From Sulfurovaceae bacterium (GTDB lineage Bacteria > Campylobacterota > Campylobacteria > Campylobacterales > Sulfurovaceae), in the NCBI GenBank assembly GCA_028715055.1, contig JAQTLE010000004.1:62001-126000 (forward strand): DNA of 64,000 bases. Direction: 5' to 3'. The position numbers were made by a program, and so were the translations under genes. Below the pieces are notes generated by a model that was not told the origin of the DNA, did no database searches, and saw only the letters and a list, made by a program, of their open reading frames with translations. Positions 8,889-30,097 of this stretch are shown here, one piece after another. Numbering within the stretch: position 1 is the stretch's first letter; each line of letters begins with the position of its first letter.

Positions 8889-9188
8889 ATGAATTTTCGC
8901 GACCGGTGCTATTCACTTTTGCTTCAAATCCCAAAAGGTAAAGTAACTACATATCAAGCAATTGCTCACGCATTAGGTAGTAGGGCGTACAGAGCAGTAG
9001 GCACTGCAATGGCAAAAAATCAAAACCCTATAAATGTGCCTTGCCATAGAGTAGTCAAGAATAATAGGGAGGTCGGCAACTATTCTCTAGGCATAGATAA
9101 AAAGATAGAACTTCTTACAAATGAAGGAATTGAGATAAAAAATGGCAAAATAGCTAATTTTGCCGATGTGTTTTACGATTTTTTATAA
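8889..9188 (+). CDS. MGMT-family DNA-binding protein (O6-alkylguanine repair type)
   Basis: A 99-residue protein consisting only of the C-terminal helix-turn-helix/active-site domain of O6-methylguanine-DNA methyltransferases. The P-C-H-R-V motif with the acceptor Cys52 is intact, and Y-R-A-V-G-x-A-M is present. It lacks the N-terminal domain of full Ogt/Ada proteins, so it could be a compact alkyltransferase or, since Cys is kept, not an alkyltransferase-like (Trp) protein. It has a strong AGGAG site. Its stop overlaps the stop of the convergent cupin gene. Confidence 0.85.
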   Translation: MNFRDRCYSLLLQIPKGKVTTYQAIAHALGSRAYRAVGTAMAKNQNPINVPCHRVVKNNREVGNYSLGIDKKIELLTNEGIEIKNGKIANFADVFYDFL

Positions 9189-9521
9189 TCTTACAAGATT
9201 TTGGACTCTTTGTACAGTATCGTTTTTTGATAGTACGAGTCTTAGGATACTTTGCTCAATAGCTTCAAGAGAATGAGGAATTTTTGCATCAAAATATATC
9301 ATCTCACCATCATGAAGCACTATACTTTTTCCTAGCGAACTGATAGTTACTTCTCCTTGAAGTACCATGATAGTTATCGCTCCTGGAGCTATATGCTCTT
9401 GCATGATATTGTCCTTTGCCATACAGATACGGATCTCTTTGCTGTTAGGAGTTTCCAACATCTTTGTTATTTTAGGTGTTGTATCAAAATGAAGATTTTC
9501 CAAAAAAGCTACTTTTGTCAT
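9183..9521 (-). CDS. Cupin-domain protein
   Basis: A 112-residue single-domain cupin. Motif 1 is partly visible (H-I-A-P-G-A-I-T around residues 42-49, then V-L-Q-G-E-V) and motif 2 reads D-A-K-I-P-H-S-L-E-A. It follows directly after the hemerythrin gene (adjacent, no gap), so the two form a unit. Small cupins of this type often bind a metal and are found beside hemerythrins and redox regulators; substrate unknown. Confidence 0.75.
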   Translation of the reverse strand: MTKVAFLENLHFDTTPKITKMLETPNSKEIRICMAKDNIMQEHIAPGAITIMVLQGEVTISSLGKSIVLHDGEMIYFDAKIPHSLEAIEQSILRLVLSKNDTVQRVQNLVRL

Positions 9522-9932
9522 CTAGCAGCCTTTACTCATGCAGATAAATTGAGCAGTGATGGTGTCCATGGTCATGATGTGAGTATGTAGCCAATCAATC
9601 ATTGAGCCCAAAAAGTAGTCATGCAGTAACTCATTATTTTTGGTACCAAACCACTGTGATGCAATACGCTGCACCTCATTAAATACTCTTATATGTTCAC
9701 TCTCGTGCATAGCAAATGCAGGAAAGCCCACTTCACGCATGAGTCTTTCTTCATTTCCAAAATGTCTTCTTGTATGGTCTATAATCTCATGCAAACAAGT
9801 TGCTATAGAGTCATAATCATTTGGAGAGTTTTTTAACAATTCTTCAAGTGTATTGAGTAGTGTAGCTTCTTCATGATGCACACTGTTCATCTCGTCGAAT
9901 GCAACTTGTGGCAGGTTCGAATGATCTATCAT
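9522..9932 (-). CDS. Bacteriohemerythrin
   Basis: A 136-residue di-iron oxygen/NO-binding protein. The iron ligands of the family are visible: H19 or H20, H53-x3-H57-x3-E61, H76-x3-H80 and H118-x4-D123. It probably stores, senses or scavenges O2 or NO in the cytoplasm (no signal peptide). It is divergent from a Crp/Fnr regulator 72 nt away and followed at once by a cupin, suggesting a small redox-stress unit controlled by that regulator. Confidence 0.9.
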   Translation of the reverse strand: MIDHSNLPQVAFDEMNSVHHEEATLLNTLEELLKNSPNDYDSIATCLHEIIDHTRRHFGNEERLMREVGFPAFAMHESEHIRVFNEVQRIASQWFGTKNNELLHDYFLGSMIDWLHTHIMTMDTITAQFICMSKGC

Positions 9933-9961
9933 TATATTTATCCTTGTTTTTCAGGAAGCAT

Positions 9962-9998
9962 ATACTATAGTATGAATAAAAATATTGATTATGGTTAA
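9962..9998. promoter_or_regulatory. Divergent control region with palindrome and Fnr-like half sites
   Basis: Between hemerythrin and the Crp/Fnr gene lies a perfect 12-bp palindrome ATACTATAGTAT (9962-9973), which can serve as a -10-like box on both strands, and TTGAT-N4-GTTAA (9985-9998), matching 8 of 10 symmetric positions of an Fnr box (TTGAT-N4-ATCAA). The latter sits 6 nt before the regulator start, fitting autorepression. Inference. Confidence 0.4.
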
Positions 9999-10004
9999 GA
10001 TTAT

Positions 10005-10640
10005 ATGAATTTTAAAGAGATTTCACTTTTTGCATCGTTGGATGATGAGACACTCGAGTATTTGGGAACTACAGCCAAAAAAAGAGAATTAGAAGCATAT
10101 AAAATACTTTTTTATGCCGGCGAACAGCCAAAACGATTTTTGATATTAGCTAGCGGTGAAGTAGAAGTCTATAAACATGACAAAAAAGGCAATGAGATCA
10201 TAATGGGTCAATTTATAGCACCTTCGCTCATTGCAGAAATGCCGACATTGAAAGGTATTCCTTATCCGGCTACTGCCAGATGTAAAAGTGATGTCGAGAT
10301 GTATGAGATAGACTTTGAAAGTATTCAGGATTATATATCTAAAACTTCTTCTTTATCACAGATATTTATAAGTTCGCTGACTCAAAAAATACAGCATTTA
10401 GAAAGTGTTTTAAGATATGCCACCATTTCGAATGCATCTGCGCGTGCAGCAACTTTTTTGATAGATAATGAACATCAATTGCACCAAATCACTCAACGCC
10501 AAATTGCTTCAAATATCATGCTTACACCAGAGGGGTTGTCAAGAATTCTAAAGTGTTTCAAAAAGGATGGGCTAATCGAAGTACGTGTTAAAAAGCTATA
10601 TATTGTTGATCGAGAGAGGCTGCTGAAGATTGCAAACTAG
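10005..10640 (+). CDS. Crp/Fnr family transcriptional regulator
   Basis: A 211-residue regulator with an N-terminal cyclic-nucleotide-like beta barrel (~5-115), a long dimerisation helix and a C-terminal winged helix-turn-helix (R-Q-I-A-S-N-I-M-L-T-P-E-G-L-S-R-I-L-K, about 165-183). It lacks an N-terminal cysteine cluster, so it is not a classical Fe-S Fnr; ligand could be NO/haem or none. The divergent hemerythrin-cupin pair is the likely target. Its stop codon overlaps the stop of the convergent methyltransferase gene. Confidence 0.85.
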   Translation: MNFKEISLFASLDDETLEYLGTTAKKRELEAYKILFYAGEQPKRFLILASGEVEVYKHDKKGNEIIMGQFIAPSLIAEMPTLKGIPYPATARCKSDVEMYEIDFESIQDYISKTSSLSQIFISSLTQKIQHLESVLRYATISNASARAATFLIDNEHQLHQITQRQIASNIMLTPEGLSRILKCFKKDGLIEVRVKKLYIVDRERLLKIAN

Positions 10641-22350: not shown

Positions 22351-22427
22351 TGGCGCGGCGGACGGGGCTCGAACCCGCGACCCCCTGCGTGACAGGCAGG
22401 TAATCTAACCAGCTGATCTACCGCCGC
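22351..22427 (-). tRNA. tRNA-Asp (GTC), copy 1
   Basis: 77-nt cloverleaf with 7-bp acceptor GCGGCGG/CCGCCGC, anticodon loop CTGTCAC (anticodon GTC) and T arm GGTTCGAGCC. 3' CCA is encoded. Last tRNA of the array. Confidence 0.97.
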
Positions 22428-22442
22428 ATGGTTTGTTTTTGT

Positions 22443-22485
22443 AATGTTGAATGTTAAATTAGTTCATAACTCATCATTCAACATT
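22443..22485 (-). repeat. Inverted repeat inside tRNA array
   Basis: Perfect 11-bp arms AATGTTGAATG and CATTCAACATT, 21 nt apart, between tRNA-Val and tRNA-Asp. Could be a processing hairpin of the tRNA precursor or a small inserted palindromic element. Confidence 0.5.
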
Positions 22486-22493
22486 AGTATCGA

Positions 22494-22569
22494 TGGTGGT
22501 CCCTGCAAGACTCGAACTTGCGACATCTACCTTGTAAGGGTAGCGCTCTACCAACTGAGCTAAGAGACC
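22494..22569 (-). tRNA. tRNA-Val (TAC), copy 1
   Basis: 76-nt cloverleaf with acceptor GGTCTCT/AGGGACC, anticodon loop CTTACAA (TAC), TTCGAGT T loop, CCA encoded. Confidence 0.97.
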
Positions 22570-22627
22570 TTAAAAGCAAACTATGTTTGCGTGAGCCGTC
22601 TGCTGAAGACAATAAATACACAGACTT

Positions 22628-22703
22628 TGGCGACCCTTAGAGGATTTGAACCTCTGTGTCTGCGTTGAAAACGCAACATCCTTGGCCACTAGATGAAAGG
22701 GTC
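22628..22703 (-). tRNA. tRNA-Glu (TTC)
   Basis: 76-nt cloverleaf with anticodon stem GCGTT-TTCAACGC (anticodon TTC), GGTTCAAATCC T arm and encoded CCA. Only copy in this array. Confidence 0.97.
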
Positions 22704-22772
22704 ATCTAGATCCAAACAGTCATAAAAAAAGCGATATATTCGCATGAGTCAACTATTTGAAGTTAACTTTAG

Positions 22773-22848
22773 TGGTGTCCCGTCTAGGATTCGAACCTAG
22801 GGCCCATTCATTAAAAGTGAATTGCTCTACCAACTGAGCTAACGAGAC
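22773..22848 (-). tRNA. tRNA-Lys (TTT), copy 1
   Basis: 76-nt cloverleaf with anticodon loop CTTTTAA (TTT), GGTTCGAATCC T arm and encoded CCA. Confidence 0.97.
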
Positions 22849-22854
22849 ATAAAG

Positions 22855-22931
22855 TGGCGCGGCGGACGGGGCTCGAACCCGCGACCCCCTGCGTGACAGG
22901 CAGGTAATCTAACCAGCTGATCTACCGCCGC
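22855..22931 (-). tRNA. tRNA-Asp (GTC), copy 2
   Basis: Sequence identical to the copy at 22351-22427, CCA included. Only 6 nt separate it from tRNA-Lys copy 1. Confidence 0.97.
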
Positions 22932-22950
22932 ACCGAAAATCTAATTTAAA

Positions 22951-23026
22951 TGGTGGTCCCTGCAAGACTCGAACTTGCGACATCTACCTTGTAAGGGTAG
23001 CGCTCTACCAACTGAGCTAAGAGACC
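22951..23026 (-). tRNA. tRNA-Val (TAC), copy 2
   Basis: Identical to the copy at 22494-22569, CCA included. Confidence 0.97.
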
Positions 23027-23124
23027 AAAGGCTGAAATTATAGCAATCTTTACTTTAATTTCTAATTTAATTTTTAAAAAAATCTCTAAATTTTTTTAAG
23101 TTAACTTTTTTAAAGATAACTTGG

Positions 23125-23200
23125 TGGTGTCCCGTCTAGGATTCGAACCTAGGGCCCATTCATTAAAAGTGAATTGCTCTACCAACTGAGCTAACGAGAC
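23125..23200 (-). tRNA. tRNA-Lys (TTT), copy 2
   Basis: Identical to the copy at 22773-22848, CCA included. It is the first tRNA of the array, directly behind the promoter at 23219-23247. Confidence 0.97.
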
Positions 23201-23260: not shown

Positions 23261-23755
23261 TTAAAAAATAATTTTCATCTCTTTTGCCAATAATTTTACC
23301 GCAAAATCCACCGAAGCATTCTGTACAGCCACCCTGTCGCCTTCAAACAAACAGTGATGCACGATATTTCCGTTTGGTGAAAGCATACCTATATATACTG
23401 TGCCTACAGGCTTAGTAATAGTAGCACCAGTAGGCCCTGCTATCCCAGAAATTGCTATCGCATAATCACAGTTTGTCATTTTTTGGATACCGATCAGCAT
23501 TTGAGCTACGCATTCGCGGCTTACCGCTCCGAATTGTTCTAGTATGCTTGTCTCTACACCAAGCCAGCGGTGCTTTATCTCATTGCTATATGACACTACT
23601 GAGCCGTTGAGCACTCTAGATACGCCTGAAATCGCAGTAAACTTGGATACCAGCAACCCACCTGTGCAACTCTCTGCGAAAGAGATGGTTTGGTTGCTCT
23701 TTTTCAAAGCTTTTATGATGGCGATTATCTGATCTGTAAGTTCATCTTTTTTCAT
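23261..23755 (-). CDS. pncC: Nicotinamide-nucleotide amidohydrolase (CinA C-terminal family)
   Basis: A 164-residue protein equivalent to the C-terminal domain of CinA. Motifs F-A-E-S-C-T-G-G-L-L (30-39), V-V-S-Y-S-N-E-I-K, G-A-V-S-R-E-C-V and I-S-G-I-A-G-P-T-G-A-T are present. Deamidates NMN for NAD recycling. Upstream of the tRNA array in the same direction. Confidence 0.9.
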   Translation of the reverse strand: MKKDELTDQIIAIIKALKKSNQTISFAESCTGGLLVSKFTAISGVSRVLNGSVVSYSNEIKHRWLGVETSILEQFGAVSRECVAQMLIGIQKMTNCDYAIAISGIAGPTGATITKPVGTVYIGMLSPNGNIVHHCLFEGDRVAVQNASVDFAVKLLAKEMKIIF

Positions 23756-24234: not shown

Positions 24235-24306
24235 AAAATGCAAAATAGCTCTAAAAAAATATTTACAAACCGAAAAATATAGTTGCAAAAAAGTAGTTTG
24301 CATTTT
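24235..24306. repeat. Inverted repeat at left edge of accessory island
   Basis: Perfect 10-bp arms AAAATGCAAA (24235-24244) and TTTGCATTTT (24297-24306), 52 nt apart, with CCTT outside the left arm and CCAAG outside the right. Directly after the VOC gene in an otherwise empty 209-nt gap. Could be a distal hairpin terminator or a relic of a mobile element. Confidence 0.4.
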
Positions 24307-24432
24307 CCAAGATGGATAGATTGTCATTTGAGATGATGGCGAAGTTATAATATGTACTAGCTTCATAATAGAAGTTTAGTATAAGTATGGTAAACTTAAA
24401 TAATTAATACTAAATTAGTCTCCGGGGACATC

Positions 24433-24609
24433 ATGGCACTGTTTTCATCTTCTCTCATTCGTGATTACTCTATGGACGAAGCACTTATCGCAACTCGTTG
24501 GGCAAATTTCCAAAAATTCCTATCTAAAATAGATAAAGAGATAAACCAAATGGTGTATAAACTCTATGGGCTTACAGATGATGAGATAAATATTGCAGAA
24601 ATGATATGA
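24433..24609 (+). pseudogene. 58-residue ORF resembling the C-terminal tail of a restriction-modification enzyme
   Basis: Short ORF whose C-terminal half reads K-I-D-K-E-I-N-Q-M-V-Y-K-L-Y-G-L-T-D-D-E-I. That pattern (I-D-x-x-V-Y-x-L-Y-G-L-T-x-x-E-I) is typical of the extreme C-terminus of combined methylase/restriction (Eco57I/type IIG-like) proteins. No methylase domain precedes it; the frame is closed 33 nt upstream by a stop. It ends in an ATGA overlap with the nuclease-STAND gene, as if a larger RM gene once preceded it in an operon. It could instead be a genuine small coupled protein. Confidence 0.5.
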
Positions 24610-27600
24610 ACAAATACCAATTCCCTTTAAAAGATGAAAAAGAGTTTGAATCATTAATTAATGATTTGTGCGAAGAAAAATACGGCATTGAATTTCAAGT
24701 TTATGGGAGAAGAGGTCAAAAACAAAGTGGAATTGATGGGCTTTCTTTTTCGAATAATGAAAAACAAATTGTTTATCAATGCAAAAACAAACTAATAGCT
24801 AGAGATGATACAAAAATTCAAGCTGAGCTTTTAAAAGACATAGAAGATGAAGTTAAATCGGCTAGTACAAAATTTACCAACATAGATACATTTATTTTTG
24901 CGAACTCTTTTAAGCAAGACACTGTTTTGCAAGATAAAGCGACAAAATTAGCATCTCAATATGGCTTTACTATCGTTGTATGGAGCTGGGAAGAGATTGA
25001 AGGATTACTTGAAAAATATCCAAAAGTAGCAAAACACTATTACTCTTGGGCATTTGACAAAAGTATACTAAGTGAAAATGATATAAAACAAAAATTTCAT
25101 GAAAATTCTCTGATTTTACTTTCCTCATCAAATTTATATATTGAAAAAAGTTTTATTGAAATGTCTGAATTTGATGAGATTTTTGAGTTTATAAATAGTG
25201 AAAATTATAAAGATAATTTACTGGTTCTAACAGGAAAAGCGGGTATCGGTAAAACTGCAATACTCAGCAAGATACAAAGTCATCTTATAGAAAACAATAT
25301 GGCATACATAAGTATCAAAAGCGATAAATTCGATATAGACAGCAGAGAATCCTTTTCTAAAATTTTTGGGGTTGAAAATATTTTACACTCTGTAAAACAG
25401 TTAGCTAGGAAAGAAAAAGTTATCATATTAATAGACCAACTGGATGCCCTGTCTTTAACTATGTCATCAAATCAAAAAATGATCAATTTAATTTTAGAGT
25501 TTATTGAGCAGTTAAAGTATATCTCCAATGTAAAAATTATTGTTTCTATCCGTGAATATGATTTAAAAAATGATCCTCTATTCAAAAATTTGGAAGATTC
25601 CAATATTATCAGAACGCAACTATTGAGTTTTGAATATGTCAATGGCAAACTCCAATCTTTTGTAAAAGATTCTACAACATTAAGCAATACCTTAATCGAG
25701 TTATTACGGACACCTTTACATCTCTCGATTTTTATAGATCTATATCCTGATGACAATAGTTGTATATCCATAAAAACTCTACAAGACTTATATAACAATT
25801 TTTGGGAACAAAAAGTTAATAGTAAGTCGATAGAGAGAACTTCGAGACAGAAAATTATTGAGTTATTGAATTCAGTAGTTCATAAAATGAATGAATTGAA
25901 AAAAATTGAAGTTCCTGCTTTGTATTTTGAAGATGAATTTAAAGAAGAAATGAGTCTTTTATTGAGCAATGGTATTTTCAAACAAGAGAATCACAAAATC
26001 TCATTTTTTCATCAAACTTTTTATGATTATGTATTTGCTAGGGATTTTGCCAAAAAAGGTATATCTTTATTTGAGTATATTTTAACAACATCCCAAGATT
26101 TGAGTATAAGGGAACAATTCAAACAGATTATTCAGTTTTTGAGAGGGACTGATCCGGAAAAATATTTATTGGAACTTGACAATATTTTATATTCAGAGCG
26201 AGTTCGATTCCATATCAAGCTTTTATTGATTTCATATCTAGGAAGTCTTGAAAATCCAACTGCAGAAGAGTTTTCATTTATTCAAAAACTTTTTAGAGAT
26301 GATAAAAATTTTGAAAAGTATTTTATTGAGAGTTGGATTTCTGCTGATTGGCTGATCTATTTTAAAGAAGCTGGTTTTTTTAATAATGCAAATTTTCAAA
26401 AATATAACCTACAGAATAGATTAGAAACTTTTATAAACAAAGAAACAGATTTGGTATTTGATATATTGGATAATTGCCAATGTGAAGAGAAAATAAAAAA
26501 CCCTTCAATCATTAATTGCTTAAGTAGATTAGACAACTGGCATGATACAAGCTTTGAAATATTTAAAAAGTATCACTTTTTATTATATGAAGGAGATATT
26601 CATTACTATGACTTAAAAAAGCTTTATCAAAAAATATATCAACTTGATCAAAAATATGCTACAAACATATTTTTTGATTTTTTAAATAAACGAATCGATA
26701 CAGTAGAAGATCATGATAAGAAAGAGTTATTAGACCTTGATTGGTATGAGATATTTGAATTTTTATTAGAACAAAATAATACAGAAATATTGCAAAAACT
26801 ATTAGGGTCAATTTATAAAATTAGTAAAAAATTTTTAAATGAATATTCTAAAAGAGAGTTTTTGATTACTGATAAGGTATTTGATTTTTCTATGTGGCAA
26901 ATTGAAGAATTACATAAAAGCTCATGGGAGATATATCGGAAAACTCTCAATAAGGTATCTCAGTTAGCCATAGATAACAAAGATAGTTTTTTAGAACTTA
27001 TCAAACCATATCAAGATACTCATTATCTTTCGCTTATTACATTTCTAATATTTGGATATTCTAAAACTCCTCATGAATATAGAAGCGAAATATTGAAATT
27101 ATTTACAAATGTAAAGCTTTTAGAAGAACTAGATTTTTCTTATGATAATGGATATGAATTTGCATTACTATTGAATAAGTCTTTTCTACTTTTTAATGAA
27201 ATAGAACAAAAACAAATTTTTAACTCTATAATACAAGTAAATCCAGAATGGCAAAATAAACGGTTTATAGGCAAATATGGGAATGATAAATCCGTATATC
27301 AAGGTACATTTAGAGGATTACAAAAATATGAACTTTTATTTCAACTCGAGATAGAAGATATAAAAAAATTTGGTTATTTCAAAGAGTTTTGTGAATTACA
27401 AAGAAAGTTTTATTGGTATAAGTTAGAAAAACCACATAAGGCAAGAGGAGGATTTATAGGAGCACCTTTATCGGATGATATTTACAACAAAATGAGTTTA
27501 GATAATTGGCTTCACTCAATGAAAGTATTTGATGGAAAAAAATCAAGAAAAAGCGAGGTTTTGGTTTTAAGAGGTGGCAAATCAGAACATTCTCTACAGT

Positions 27601-28901
27601 TTGAAAAAAAGGTTGCAGAAAACCCAGATAATTTTTTTGATTTTTTATTACAACTAAAATCAGAAAATATTCATCCAGATTATTTGTCTGCCGGGCTGAA
27701 TGGACTTATCACAGCGAAATATTACGAGGAAAAAATTTTAAAGATTATTCATTTATATTCAGATATTGATGATAGATGGTTAAAAAGAACTATACTAAAA
27801 GCTATAAAATATTTAATAAGTAAAGATAAGTTCGATGTAAATTTAATAGATATTTTAGAAGTTAATAAAGATATAAGATATCAAGGTCTAGTAAGAGATG
27901 AAAATAAATTTCAAACTATACATGATCATATGTCTAGTTCAATAAATTCTTTTGAAGGTGATTTTGCAGAATTACTGCCTTTAATTTATAAACATGTATT
28001 TAAAGATGAAAATAGCAGAAATAGAGTTTTAAATCTTATTAATGAAGTTATTGCAAAAAATATTGACTTTGTAATATTTGGTTTGCTAAGAACAATAGGA
28101 AATATCGAATCTGTTGATAGACCTTTATTTGTAAAGCTACTAATTGATTTAATTAATAAAGATGAAACAGGACAAGTTGCAATTTATTCTTTACAAAATT
28201 TTCATTATCTATATATGAACAAATTTATTTCAAAAGAAGAAGTAGTAGCTTATATCAGAAAATGTATATCTTTTACGAAGCTTGTAAAAGATAGAGAAGA
28301 TTCAACATGCATAAATAATTTGGGAATGTATTTATATTTTTACTATTTACATGAAGATGATGAAATTTTTGAGGAATTACTTAACGAAGGAATAGATTCA
28401 AACTCTCAAGTTATTCATGGAGTATTACGTCAAATTTTTGAACGAGAAATATATTCAAAAGACAAAGAAAAAGTTGAAAAATCAAAAATGTTTATTTTAA
28501 AATTTAAAGATAATAAAGCAAATGATTATTTTTATACACTTGATTTAGTAAAAATGAATGGACTAAATTTTATTCAAAATGACTTTGAATTTGTAAAAAG
28601 TTTAGCATCATCTCTTCATATAAAGCAAGATGTAAAAAGTTTTATTGAGTATCTTCAAAATGAGTATCATTTAGATACAAATATCGCTGAAAAAATATTT
28701 GAACTTTTAGCAGAGCTAATACAAAATATAGATTCTGTTAAAGATGTTGGTTATTATGACTCACGACCATTGATTGAGTTTATTTTGGAGCTTAACACAA
28801 GAACTAAATCCGATGAAAAAAAATTAGAGATTTTAAATTTGATAGATAAATTTTTAATAAGTGATACGCTAAGATTTAGTACAAAATCAGCAATGGGGTG
28901 A
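24606..28901 (+). CDS. Nuclease-STAND NTPase protein, putative antiphage defence (Avs-like architecture)
   Basis: A 1431-residue protein. Residues ~10-150 look like a PD-(D/E)xK endonuclease of the Mrr/Cap4 type: an early Glu, G-R-R-G-Q-K-Q-S-G-I-D-G (34-45, Asp44) and V-Y-Q-C-K-N-K (56-62, Lys60). Residues ~200-480 form a STAND-type NTPase: Walker A G-K-A-G-I-G-K-T (210-217), Walker B V-I-I-L-I-D-Q-L-D (272-280), a sensor-like S-I-R-E (314-317) and a winged-helix end F-H-Q-T-F-Y-D-Y-V-F-A-R-D-F (~468-481). The remaining ~950 residues are helical, probably a repeat-type sensor. This nuclease-STAND-long sensor order is that of Avs (AVAST) proteins, which sense phage proteins and cut DNA. The subtype cannot be set. 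The gene is visibly AT-richer than its neighbours, suggesting transfer. Start is coupled (ATGA) to the small upstream ORF. Confidence 0.75.
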   Translation: MNKYQFPLKDEKEFESLINDLCEEKYGIEFQVYGRRGQKQSGIDGLSFSNNEKQIVYQCKNKLIARDDTKIQAELLKDIEDEVKSASTKFTNIDTFIFANSFKQDTVLQDKATKLASQYGFTIVVWSWEEIEGLLEKYPKVAKHYYSWAFDKSILSENDIKQKFHENSLILLSSSNLYIEKSFIEMSEFDEIFEFINSENYKDNLLVLTGKAGIGKTAILSKIQSHLIENNMAYISIKSDKFDIDSRESFSKIFGVENILHSVKQLARKEKVIILIDQLDALSLTMSSNQKMINLILEFIEQLKYISNVKIIVSIREYDLKNDPLFKNLEDSNIIRTQLLSFEYVNGKLQSFVKDSTTLSNTLIELLRTPLHLSIFIDLYPDDNSCISIKTLQDLYNNFWEQKVNSKSIERTSRQKIIELLNSVVHKMNELKKIEVPALYFEDEFKEEMSLLLSNGIFKQENHKISFFHQTFYDYVFARDFAKKGISLFEYILTTSQDLSIREQFKQIIQFLRGTDPEKYLLELDNILYSERVRFHIKLLLISYLGSLENPTAEEFSFIQKLFRDDKNFEKYFIESWISADWLIYFKEAGFFNNANFQKYNLQNRLETFINKETDLVFDILDNCQCEEKIKNPSIINCLSRLDNWHDTSFEIFKKYHFLLYEGDIHYYDLKKLYQKIYQLDQKYATNIFFDFLNKRIDTVEDHDKKELLDLDWYEIFEFLLEQNNTEILQKLLGSIYKISKKFLNEYSKREFLITDKVFDFSMWQIEELHKSSWEIYRKTLNKVSQLAIDNKDSFLELIKPYQDTHYLSLITFLIFGYSKTPHEYRSEILKLFTNVKLLEELDFSYDNGYEFALLLNKSFLLFNEIEQKQIFNSIIQVNPEWQNKRFIGKYGNDKSVYQGTFRGLQKYELLFQLEIEDIKKFGYFKEFCELQRKFYWYKLEKPHKARGGFIGAPLSDDIYNKMSLDNWLHSMKVFDGKKSRKSEVLVLRGGKSEHSLQFEKKVAENPDNFFDFLLQLKSENIHPDYLSAGLNGLITAKYYEEKILKIIHLYSDIDDRWLKRTILKAIKYLISKDKFDVNLIDILEVNKDIRYQGLVRDENKFQTIHDHMSSSINSFEGDFAELLPLIYKHVFKDENSRNRVLNLINEVIAKNIDFVIFGLLRTIGNIESVDRPLFVKLLIDLINKDETGQVAIYSLQNFHYLYMNKFISKEEVVAYIRKCISFTKLVKDREDSTCINNLGMYLYFYYLHEDDEIFEELLNEGIDSNSQVIHGVLRQIFEREIYSKDKEKVEKSKMFILKFKDNKANDYFYTLDLVKMNGLNFIQNDFEFVKSLASSLHIKQDVKSFIEYLQNEYHLDTNIAEKIFELLAELIQNIDSVKDVGYYDSRPLIEFILELNTRTKSDEKKLEILNLIDKFLISDTLRFSTKSAMG

Positions 28902-28935
28902 GATTTAATAACATTTCTCATGCATTAATAAATGG

Positions 28936-29028
28936 GTCAGGTAATGTTGATGTTACAAATAACTTTATAGACTCCGAAAATATAGGTGTCAGGTAATGCT
29001 GATGCTACAAATAACTTCTTAGACTCCG
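28936..29028. repeat. Two-copy tandem repeat, 52-nt period
   Basis: A 41-nt unit at 28936-28976 (starting GTCAGGTAATGTTGATGTTA) recurs at 28988-29028 with 37 of 41 positions equal. Both end in TAGACTCCG. Non-coding, directly after the STAND gene. The 14-nt end of the unit also appears after the ORF6N gene at 29775-29789. Confidence 0.8.
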
Positions 29029-29083
29029 CAATGACAATATAGATACTGAAACGAGTTCAGCATTATAAAGATTCCCACCCTTC

Positions 29084-29147
29084 CGACGCGGTTACACTTT
29101 CCAACAATCATATAATAACACTTAAAATCACAATAGGCTAAAAATAT
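29084..29147. repeat. 64-nt non-coding module, copy A (after STAND gene)
   Basis: Starts CGACGCGGTTACACTTTCC and matches 29863-29926 without gaps at 55 of 64 positions. Together with the preceding TAGACTCC element it forms a roughly 135-nt module that follows the STAND gene; a related ~150-nt module follows the ORF6N gene. The rest of the 28902-29227 gap holds the tandem repeat and the ORF6N upstream region. Confidence 0.75.
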
Positions 29148-29151
29148 GACG

Positions 29152-29213
29152 ATTTGACATATTTCACAATTTTACTCAACTTTTTCATTATCATCATAAA
29201 ATATATGTCAAAT
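29152..29213 (+). promoter_or_regulatory. 11-bp inverted repeat upstream of ORF6N gene
   Basis: Perfect arms ATTTGACATAT (29152-29162) and ATATGTCAAAT (29203-29213), 40 nt apart; the right arm ends just before the AGGAGG ribosome site. Candidate operator pair or a long-loop mRNA hairpin controlling the ORF6N gene. Confidence 0.5.
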
Positions 29214-29227
29214 TGTAGGAGGTTACA

Positions 29228-29734
29228 ATGGATGAATTGATAATGCAAGGCGAAATAAATAGTAGAATATTTAATTTACGCAGTAGGCAGATTATGCTAG
29301 ATGCGGACTTGGCAGAACTTTATGGTGTAGAGACAAAATATCTTAAACGGCAAGTACAAAGAAATTTTGAGCGTTTTAATGAAGAAGATTTTATGTTTGT
29401 GCTCTCAAGAGAAGAGTTTGGATTTTTGCGGAGCCAAATTGGCACCTCAAATTTTTCTAAAACTAGAGCAATGCCGTTTGCATTCACGGAGCAAGGAGTA
29501 TATATGCTAGCAACCGTTATTAATAGTCCAATAGCAATAAGCACGACTAAAAATATAATGCGCACATTTGCAAAACTCAGAGAATTTTCAAAACACTATA
29601 ACATACTGGCAAAGCAAATTATAGAGCTTGATAAAAAACATGATAAGCAATACAAGGAGTTAAAAAATGCTCTTGATGAACTTGTCAACAATGCTGCACT
29701 TGCAGATGAGCATGTGATAGGGTTTATAAAATAA
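29228..29734 (+). CDS. ORF6N-domain (KilA-N-associated, phage antirepressor-like) protein
   Basis: A 168-residue protein with an N-terminal ORF6N DNA-binding domain: I-F-N-L-R-S-R-Q-I-M-L-D-A-D-L-A-E-L-Y-G, followed by V-Q-R-N-F-E-R-F and R-A-M-P-F-A-F-T-E-Q-G-V-Y-M-L-A-T-V, and a C-terminal coiled coil (~120-160). Such proteins are common in phages and as single mobile genes in bacterial chromosomes; role uncertain (regulatory). Strong AGGAGG ribosome site. No other phage genes are near. Confidence 0.88.
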   Translation: MDELIMQGEINSRIFNLRSRQIMLDADLAELYGVETKYLKRQVQRNFERFNEEDFMFVLSREEFGFLRSQIGTSNFSKTRAMPFAFTEQGVYMLATVINSPIAISTTKNIMRTFAKLREFSKHYNILAKQIIELDKKHDKQYKELKNALDELVNNAALADEHVIGFIK

Positions 29735-29862: not shown

Positions 29863-29926
29863 CGACGCGGTCGCACTTTCCTACAATGATATCATGACAC
29901 TTAAAATCATAATAGGTTTAAAATAT
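29863..29926. repeat. 64-nt non-coding module, copy B (after ORF6N gene)
   Basis: Second copy of the module at 29084-29147 (55 of 64 equal, no gaps), preceded at 29775-29789 by the shared ACTTTTTAGACTCC element. It lies in the 633-nt gene-free stretch 29735-30367, which otherwise shows only the hairpins at 30098-30129, AT-rich DNA and the ileS upstream region. Confidence 0.75.
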
Positions 29927-30097
29927 TGCATTTTTACATATTTTTTAATATTTTTTATCTCCAAAGTTATAATTTACGACATACCATAAACGAGGACATA
30001 TTGACATAGTATGAATAAACGATTTGATGAATAGAATAGGGATGGTTGATAAGGAAAATTTTAAAATAATTCAAGAAAAAATAAAGGGGTTGATTGG

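Follow-up and report, generated by a model that had tools for sequence, protein, structure and literature searches.

The 1431-amino acid protein encoded in the window, by which we mean the whole stretch of 64,000 nucleotides of Sulfurovaceae DNA that was analyzed, is quite probably an antiphage immune protein encoded by a single gene, similar to the Avs proteins in the way it works but standing outside Avs1-5 and representing an Mrr-nuclease-armed form of the STAND family exemplified by PDC-M54A and PDB entry 9n00. Computation established three domains, conserved motifs, selection on the gene, an Avs4-like N-terminal half, the swapping of effectors among relatives and a variable locus with R-M genes. 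The family is on record both as a PADLOC candidate (PDC-M54A) and as a PDB entry, and the window protein is its nuclease-armed variant. Its most likely function would be that of an abortive antiphage nuclease that is triggered when a phage product binds to the C-terminus. By analogy with Avs and other STAND proteins, a phage-made molecule would be bound by the C-terminal helical solenoid, the STAND NTPase would then bind ATP and oligomerize, the oligomer would gather several of the N-terminal Mrr-type nuclease domains, and these nucleases would cleave DNA and halt the infection, with the cell probably being sacrificed. Sensing of terminase or portal by Avs1-4, along with NTP-dependent oligomerization and nuclease-driven cell death, has been described in work on Avs (PMC12931631, PMC12724215).

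The gene is present as a single copy in the host genome, and its ATG start is backed by orthologues beginning with MSKYQF or MGKYQF. Five full-length orthologues with approximately 68-76% identity were found, comprising L002-L005 from MAGs of Sulfurimonas, Sulfurovum and Arcobacter as well as L011 in genome G279 (G061, which appeared in the scan of the genus and phylum, probably represents the L003 record again). Values of dN/dS relative to the orthologues ranged between 0.07 and 0.37 in every segment with a computable dS, indicating that the gene is under purifying selection. The distribution of the gene is patchy, with no match in the ten other genomes of the same genus; of the 397 genomes searched in the phylum, 6 matched at E 1e-20, partial matches counted. 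In agreement with the preliminary description, which had noted a gene richer in AT than its surroundings, its GC content is 26.4% compared to 36.8% in the remaining window. Third-position GC drops along the gene from about 0.22 to 0.12, with a value of 0.37 for ileS. Synonymous divergence from L002, L005 and L011 falls sharply over the last ~380 codons (in the comparison with L002, 50 of 309 codons differ in the last part versus 257 of 746 before), which suggests recombination between the gene halves, although the falling third-position GC may contribute. Promoter and terminator scans gave results no better than those for shuffled sequences.

Table 1. Coordinates of the protein gene, its domains and the neighboring ORF6N and R-M features in the window.
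Feature	Position	Strand	Basis
Gene for the 1431-aa nuclease-STAND-helical protein	24606..28901	+	Intact ORF, orthologues, dN/dS
Mrr-type PD-(D/E)xK nuclease domain, residues 1-165 (D44, Q58, K60)	24606..25100	+	Mrr_cat, PDC-S73, LmuA, AF2 fold
STAND NTPase with winged-helix-like part, residues 185-480	25158..26045	+	nSTAND3 PF20720, Foldseek
All-helical HEAT-like region, residues 481-1431, putative sensor	26046..28898	+	AF2, Foldseek, homology to 9n00
Best-conserved C-terminal core, about residues 928-1061	27387..27788	+	Profile alignments
ORF6N gene 3'-end remnant, upstream of R-M remnant	24288..24353	+	86% DNA identity to end of G013 ORF6N gene
Type IIG (Eco57I-type) R-M remnant, 58 codons	24433..24609	+	Compared with intact 997-aa G013 gene
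Intact ORF6N-domain gene, 168 aa, downstream in variable locus	29228..29734	+	PF10543 2e-30; PDC-S05 4.6e-51

The gene lies beside ileS in a variable locus that keeps scars of an ORF6N/R-M cassette. In the closest relative (G002) the site is empty, with window positions 23692 and 30313 lying about 110 bp apart, and it is also empty in G041. G013 carries two genes at this site, flanked by a glyoxalase-like gene on one side and ileS on the other, namely an ORF6N gene (PDC-S05) and the gene of a 997-amino acid Eco57I-type type IIG R-M enzyme. The R-M remnant in the window consists of the first 34 and the last ~23 residues of this enzyme joined together, the internal ~940 amino acids having been lost, and its TGA overlaps the ATG of the STAND gene (ATGA). 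The window locus shows directly how the STAND gene came to occupy an R-M cassette, and the island in which the gene had initially been placed is borne out as a variable locus. A comparable arrangement is seen in G279, from another family within the order, where an ORF6N gene and a short remnant that ends in ATGA precede the STAND gene. The region around L002 contains an integrase, a SocA/Panacea gene, AbiEi/AbiEii and an ABC-three-component (ABC-3C) protein, and an integrase is found near L004.

Several further observations were made at these loci. ORF6N genes (PDC-S05), of which the host genome has only two, adjoin the STAND gene in two genera (L050, 7451-8368, and the intact window gene) and a type IIG R-M gene in G013. 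The intact ORF6N gene of the window is flanked by a 90-nt direct repeat (29084-29173 and 29863-29952, 80% identical), possibly a scar of mobility or duplication, and in G013 a similar stretch (89% to window 29082-29164) precedes ileS. Just 3' of the STAND gene, two imperfect 52-nt copies (85%) are arranged head to tail at 28927-29030, and near the variable locus seven tRNA genes (Asp, Val, Glu, Lys, Asp, Val, Lys) lie at 22351-23200, those for Asp, Val and Lys being duplicated. In G013, between the cinA-like and hisD-like genes, L045 contains runs of N around 9150-10450, representing masked or unassembled sequence.

The nuclease domain carries the motifs GIDG at residue 42 and QCK at residue 58, and D44, Q58 and K60 are invariant across seven diverse nuclease sequences, the other six of which are 28 to 74% identical to that of the window protein. 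The Pfam model Mrr_cat scored 21.4 bits against residues 1-165 alone, exceeding its cut-off of 21 only when the nuclease domain was scanned separately, and the PADLOC models PDC-S73 (6.8e-12) and LmuA, the Lamassu nuclease (1.2e-6), matched the same residues. Both the D...QxK active site and the family HMM place the domain in the Mrr/PD-(D/E)xK group. In line with the nuclease fold that the preliminary description expected, the AF2 model of residues 1-530 contains an alpha/beta nuclease followed by the NTPase (pLDDT 63.9); searched against the PDB by itself, the nuclease domain gave no match. The same nuclease, which was present in 8 of the 58 genera sampled, is found elsewhere together with TPRs (L013), on STAND-TPR bodies (L014 and, on an archaeal plasmid, L054) and in short or stand-alone proteins (L055, L056), which indicates that effector and body are exchanged independently.

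In the central part of the protein, the model nSTAND3 (PF20720) scored 29.8 bits with a cut-off of 27.2, in agreement with the STAND NTPase recognized in the preliminary description. Walker A (GKAGIGKT, 210-217), Walker B (LIDQLD, 275-280), SIRE at 314 and FHQTFYDY at 468 were located, all motifs named in the preliminary description of both domains being present, and the catalytic and nucleotide-binding residues are kept in the orthologues, one of which reads GKPGIGKT. When residues 1-530 were compared to the PDB with Foldseek, the top match was Avs4 with portal (8dgf; E 1.3e-13, 542 columns), which supports an Avs-like fold as well as the Avs-like order originally claimed for a protein made up of a nuclease, a STAND NTPase and ~950 helical residues. 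The AF2 models, made in two parts (residues 1-530 and 480-1431), rest on five close orthologues and reached modest confidence (pLDDT 63.9 and 68.9, pTM 0.42), so that global TM-scores were low; the Foldseek result therefore indicates that comparable parts follow one another in one order, and not that the structures superpose precisely. Matches of residues 411-513 to PI5P4K in the PDB search were judged to be due to chance because they were not reproduced by the family profile.

The model of residues 480-1431 is all-helical (mean pLDDT 68.9), as anticipated, and HEAT solenoids such as importins came first in the corresponding Foldseek search. Alignment A4 showed collinear conservation of the C-terminus, most pronounced in a core with the pattern G-G-[FI]-[IV]-x-x-P-L ... 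G-G-x-x-E ... N-P-D-x-F, with weak support for homology over the last ~200 residues. Although the preliminary description recognized no family in this region, a profile built from the C-terminus only (from residue 561) gave 86-96% in hhalign with proteins H1, H2 and H3 from Herpetosiphon, Rhizobium and Segatella and with a caspase protein, compared to 0.1-0.2% for reversed sequences, 0.8% for Avs4 and 0.3% for Avs2. With the SEFIR protein the value was weak (37.8%), and in tblastn this protein covered 67% of the Herpetosiphon protein. A profile HMM of the window family, which included L012 and left out the plasmid proteins, aligned to the Herpetosiphon protein (profile 162-1113) and the Segatella protein (profile 204-1178). 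Likewise, profile A4 aligned to residues 242-1511 of the 1523 residues of PDB 9n00 (E 8.9e-129; also to 9n01 and 9yix), and profile A5, built without the caspase protein, aligned to residues 263-1279 of 9n00 (E 9.8e-58) and to the caspase protein from the STAND part to near the C-terminus. The window protein itself matched 9n00 at 2e-16, in keeping with a homologous STAND domain, and the caspase protein is about 33% identical to 9n00. The C-terminal region thus belongs to a family shared with STAND proteins that bear other effectors and with 9n00, 9n01 and 9yix.

Moreover, tblastn against plasmids retrieved STAND proteins with differing N-termini, and the N-termini joined to the same STAND and C-terminal parts comprise the Mrr nuclease, a caspase, SEFIR/TIR, a Cap4-like domain and a membrane segment, demonstrating that the C-terminus is a conserved module and not an orphan. 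Pfam identified SEFIR/TIR in a Nostoc protein and Peptidase_C14 in a Tolypothrix protein, and found neither Cap4 nor DUF4297 in the N-termini of H2 and H3, so that the term Cap4-like reflects motif reading only for these two. L012 has hydrophobic segments where the nuclease would be and a C-terminus split by a frameshift; its membrane N-terminus is open to the contig end without a stop and could be longer. The PADLOC candidate PDC-M54A, an uncharacterized label, matches eight of nine family members, aligning with H2 from residue 5 but with the window protein from residue 204 only (2e-13). Both the STAND part and the C-terminal region of the window protein are thus homologous to the PDC-M54A/9n00-type family, while its N-terminal effector differs from that of the PDC-M54A model, which is Cap4-like by motif. 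Within the plasmid set, the proteins most closely related to 9n00 come from cyanobacteria, and two of them carry the annotation caspase family. A search of the literature library for 9n00, 9n01 and 9yix found no paper describing them, and the window protein was not identified in papers on nuclease-protease pairs, CARD-NLR, the Gifsy protein or DefensePredictor. More tentatively, and with some doubt on our part, these proteins may constitute a STAND immune family apart from Avs1-5, in which one STAND-sensor body carries swapped effectors (Mrr nuclease, caspase, SEFIR/TIR, Cap4-like or membrane) across Campylobacterota, Cyanobacteria, Chloroflexota, Bacteroidota and Alphaproteobacteria and the C-terminal core senses a phage ligand new to STAND systems.

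Given the common domain order, with an effector followed by STAND and long C-terminal repeats, the top Foldseek match to 8dgf and the alignment of a five-orthologue profile to the nuclease and STAND parts of Avs4, the protein might be regarded as a divergent true member of the Avs2 or Avs4 type that senses terminase or portal, an explanation that we consider highly improbable. The Avs1-5 models of PADLOC and NCBIfam gave no match to the window protein at E up to 10, and the Avs4 HMM found nothing in the host genome, although it did detect a true Avs4 in a genome of the same genus (L019). Avs2 proteins are present in the phylum (L029, L030). Against the real Avs4 (L019) and Avs2 (L029), alignment of the family profile was confined to the STAND part, and taking all profiles together only the nuclease and/or STAND half aligned; the C-terminal profile values of 0.8 and 0.3%, as opposed to 86-96% with PDC-M54A-type proteins, point in the same direction. 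A C-terminal sensor homologous to those of Avs was not found, the sensors of Avs1, Avs3 and Avs5 having been compared via library HMMs only. Avs membership, as suggested in the preliminary description, was consequently rejected, and the possibly new branch proposed there is a reasonable reading relative to Avs1-5 but corresponds to a branch that is already a PADLOC candidate and has a structure. As the C-termini were unrelated by every test run, the ligand is not transferable from Avs, and neither terminase nor portal should be assumed.

Two other explanations arise from the genomic context. The STAND nuclease could guard the neighboring R-M system by sensing anti-restriction or the loss of R-M instead of a structural protein of a phage, in which case the recurrent order of ORF6N, R-M and STAND genes and the ATGA overlap would be functional. 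The overlapping start and stop in the window, the comparable arrangement in G279 and the ORF6N and type IIG R-M genes in the same slot of G013 fit such a role; however, the R-M gene in the window is down to 58 codons, and no R-M gene was seen beside the STAND gene in L002, L003, L004 or L005. We consider a guard function very unlikely. Defense against plasmids or other mobile elements instead of phages, or a selfish cargo gene of such elements, is also very unlikely in our estimation. Relatives do occur on plasmids and in integrase-bearing islands, and 50,697 phage records yielded a single match, to the nuclease only (on a Salmonella contig), with no relatives on viral contigs scanned with profile A1 and a degenerate FHQTFYDY pattern. 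On the other hand, effector swapping and the R-M and AbiE neighbors fit antiphage immunity equally well, and the closest folded relative, Avs4, is antiphage. The likely antiphage role put forward at the outset is supported, alongside the location in a variable defense locus.

In Avs proteins the sensor defines both the family and the phage protein that is seen. A different sensor body, kept across phyla with at least four kinds of N-terminus, implies a recurring trigger that as yet has no name. Being encoded by one gene, the nuclease-armed Campylobacterota version makes a simple test case, and the solved relative 9n00 can guide the design of mutants.

Among known systems, Lamassu possesses in LmuA a Cap4/Mrr-type nuclease like that of the window protein. 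LmuA is part of an SMC-based multi-gene system, in contrast to the window locus, which has no SMC-type partner gene. Avs5 (Sir2-nSTAND3) resembles the window protein in its nSTAND3-type NTPase, but has a Sir2 NADase effector and a TPR/PPR-type sensor (PMC12931631), and its model did not match. Avs2 (PDLC02164; L029, L030) also combines a nuclease, STAND and a long C-terminus, and its model was weakly matched by the STAND part of the Segatella family member (6e-6), although alignment is limited to STAND or to nuclease and STAND. Avs4 (AVAST type 4; 8dgf; NF041815; L019) shares the order of nuclease, STAND and helical repeats, a similar fold of residues 1-530 and an Mrr-like nuclease with a (D/E)...QxK active site, as read from L019; it differs in that its HMM gave no match, its C-terminus has no detectable homology and it recognizes portal. 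In comparison, 9n00/9n01/9yix (annotated 'AAA family ATPase', 1523 amino acids) and PDC-M54A, despite the different N-terminus of 9n00, to which the window nuclease gives no match, have both the STAND part and the long C-terminus in common with the window protein.
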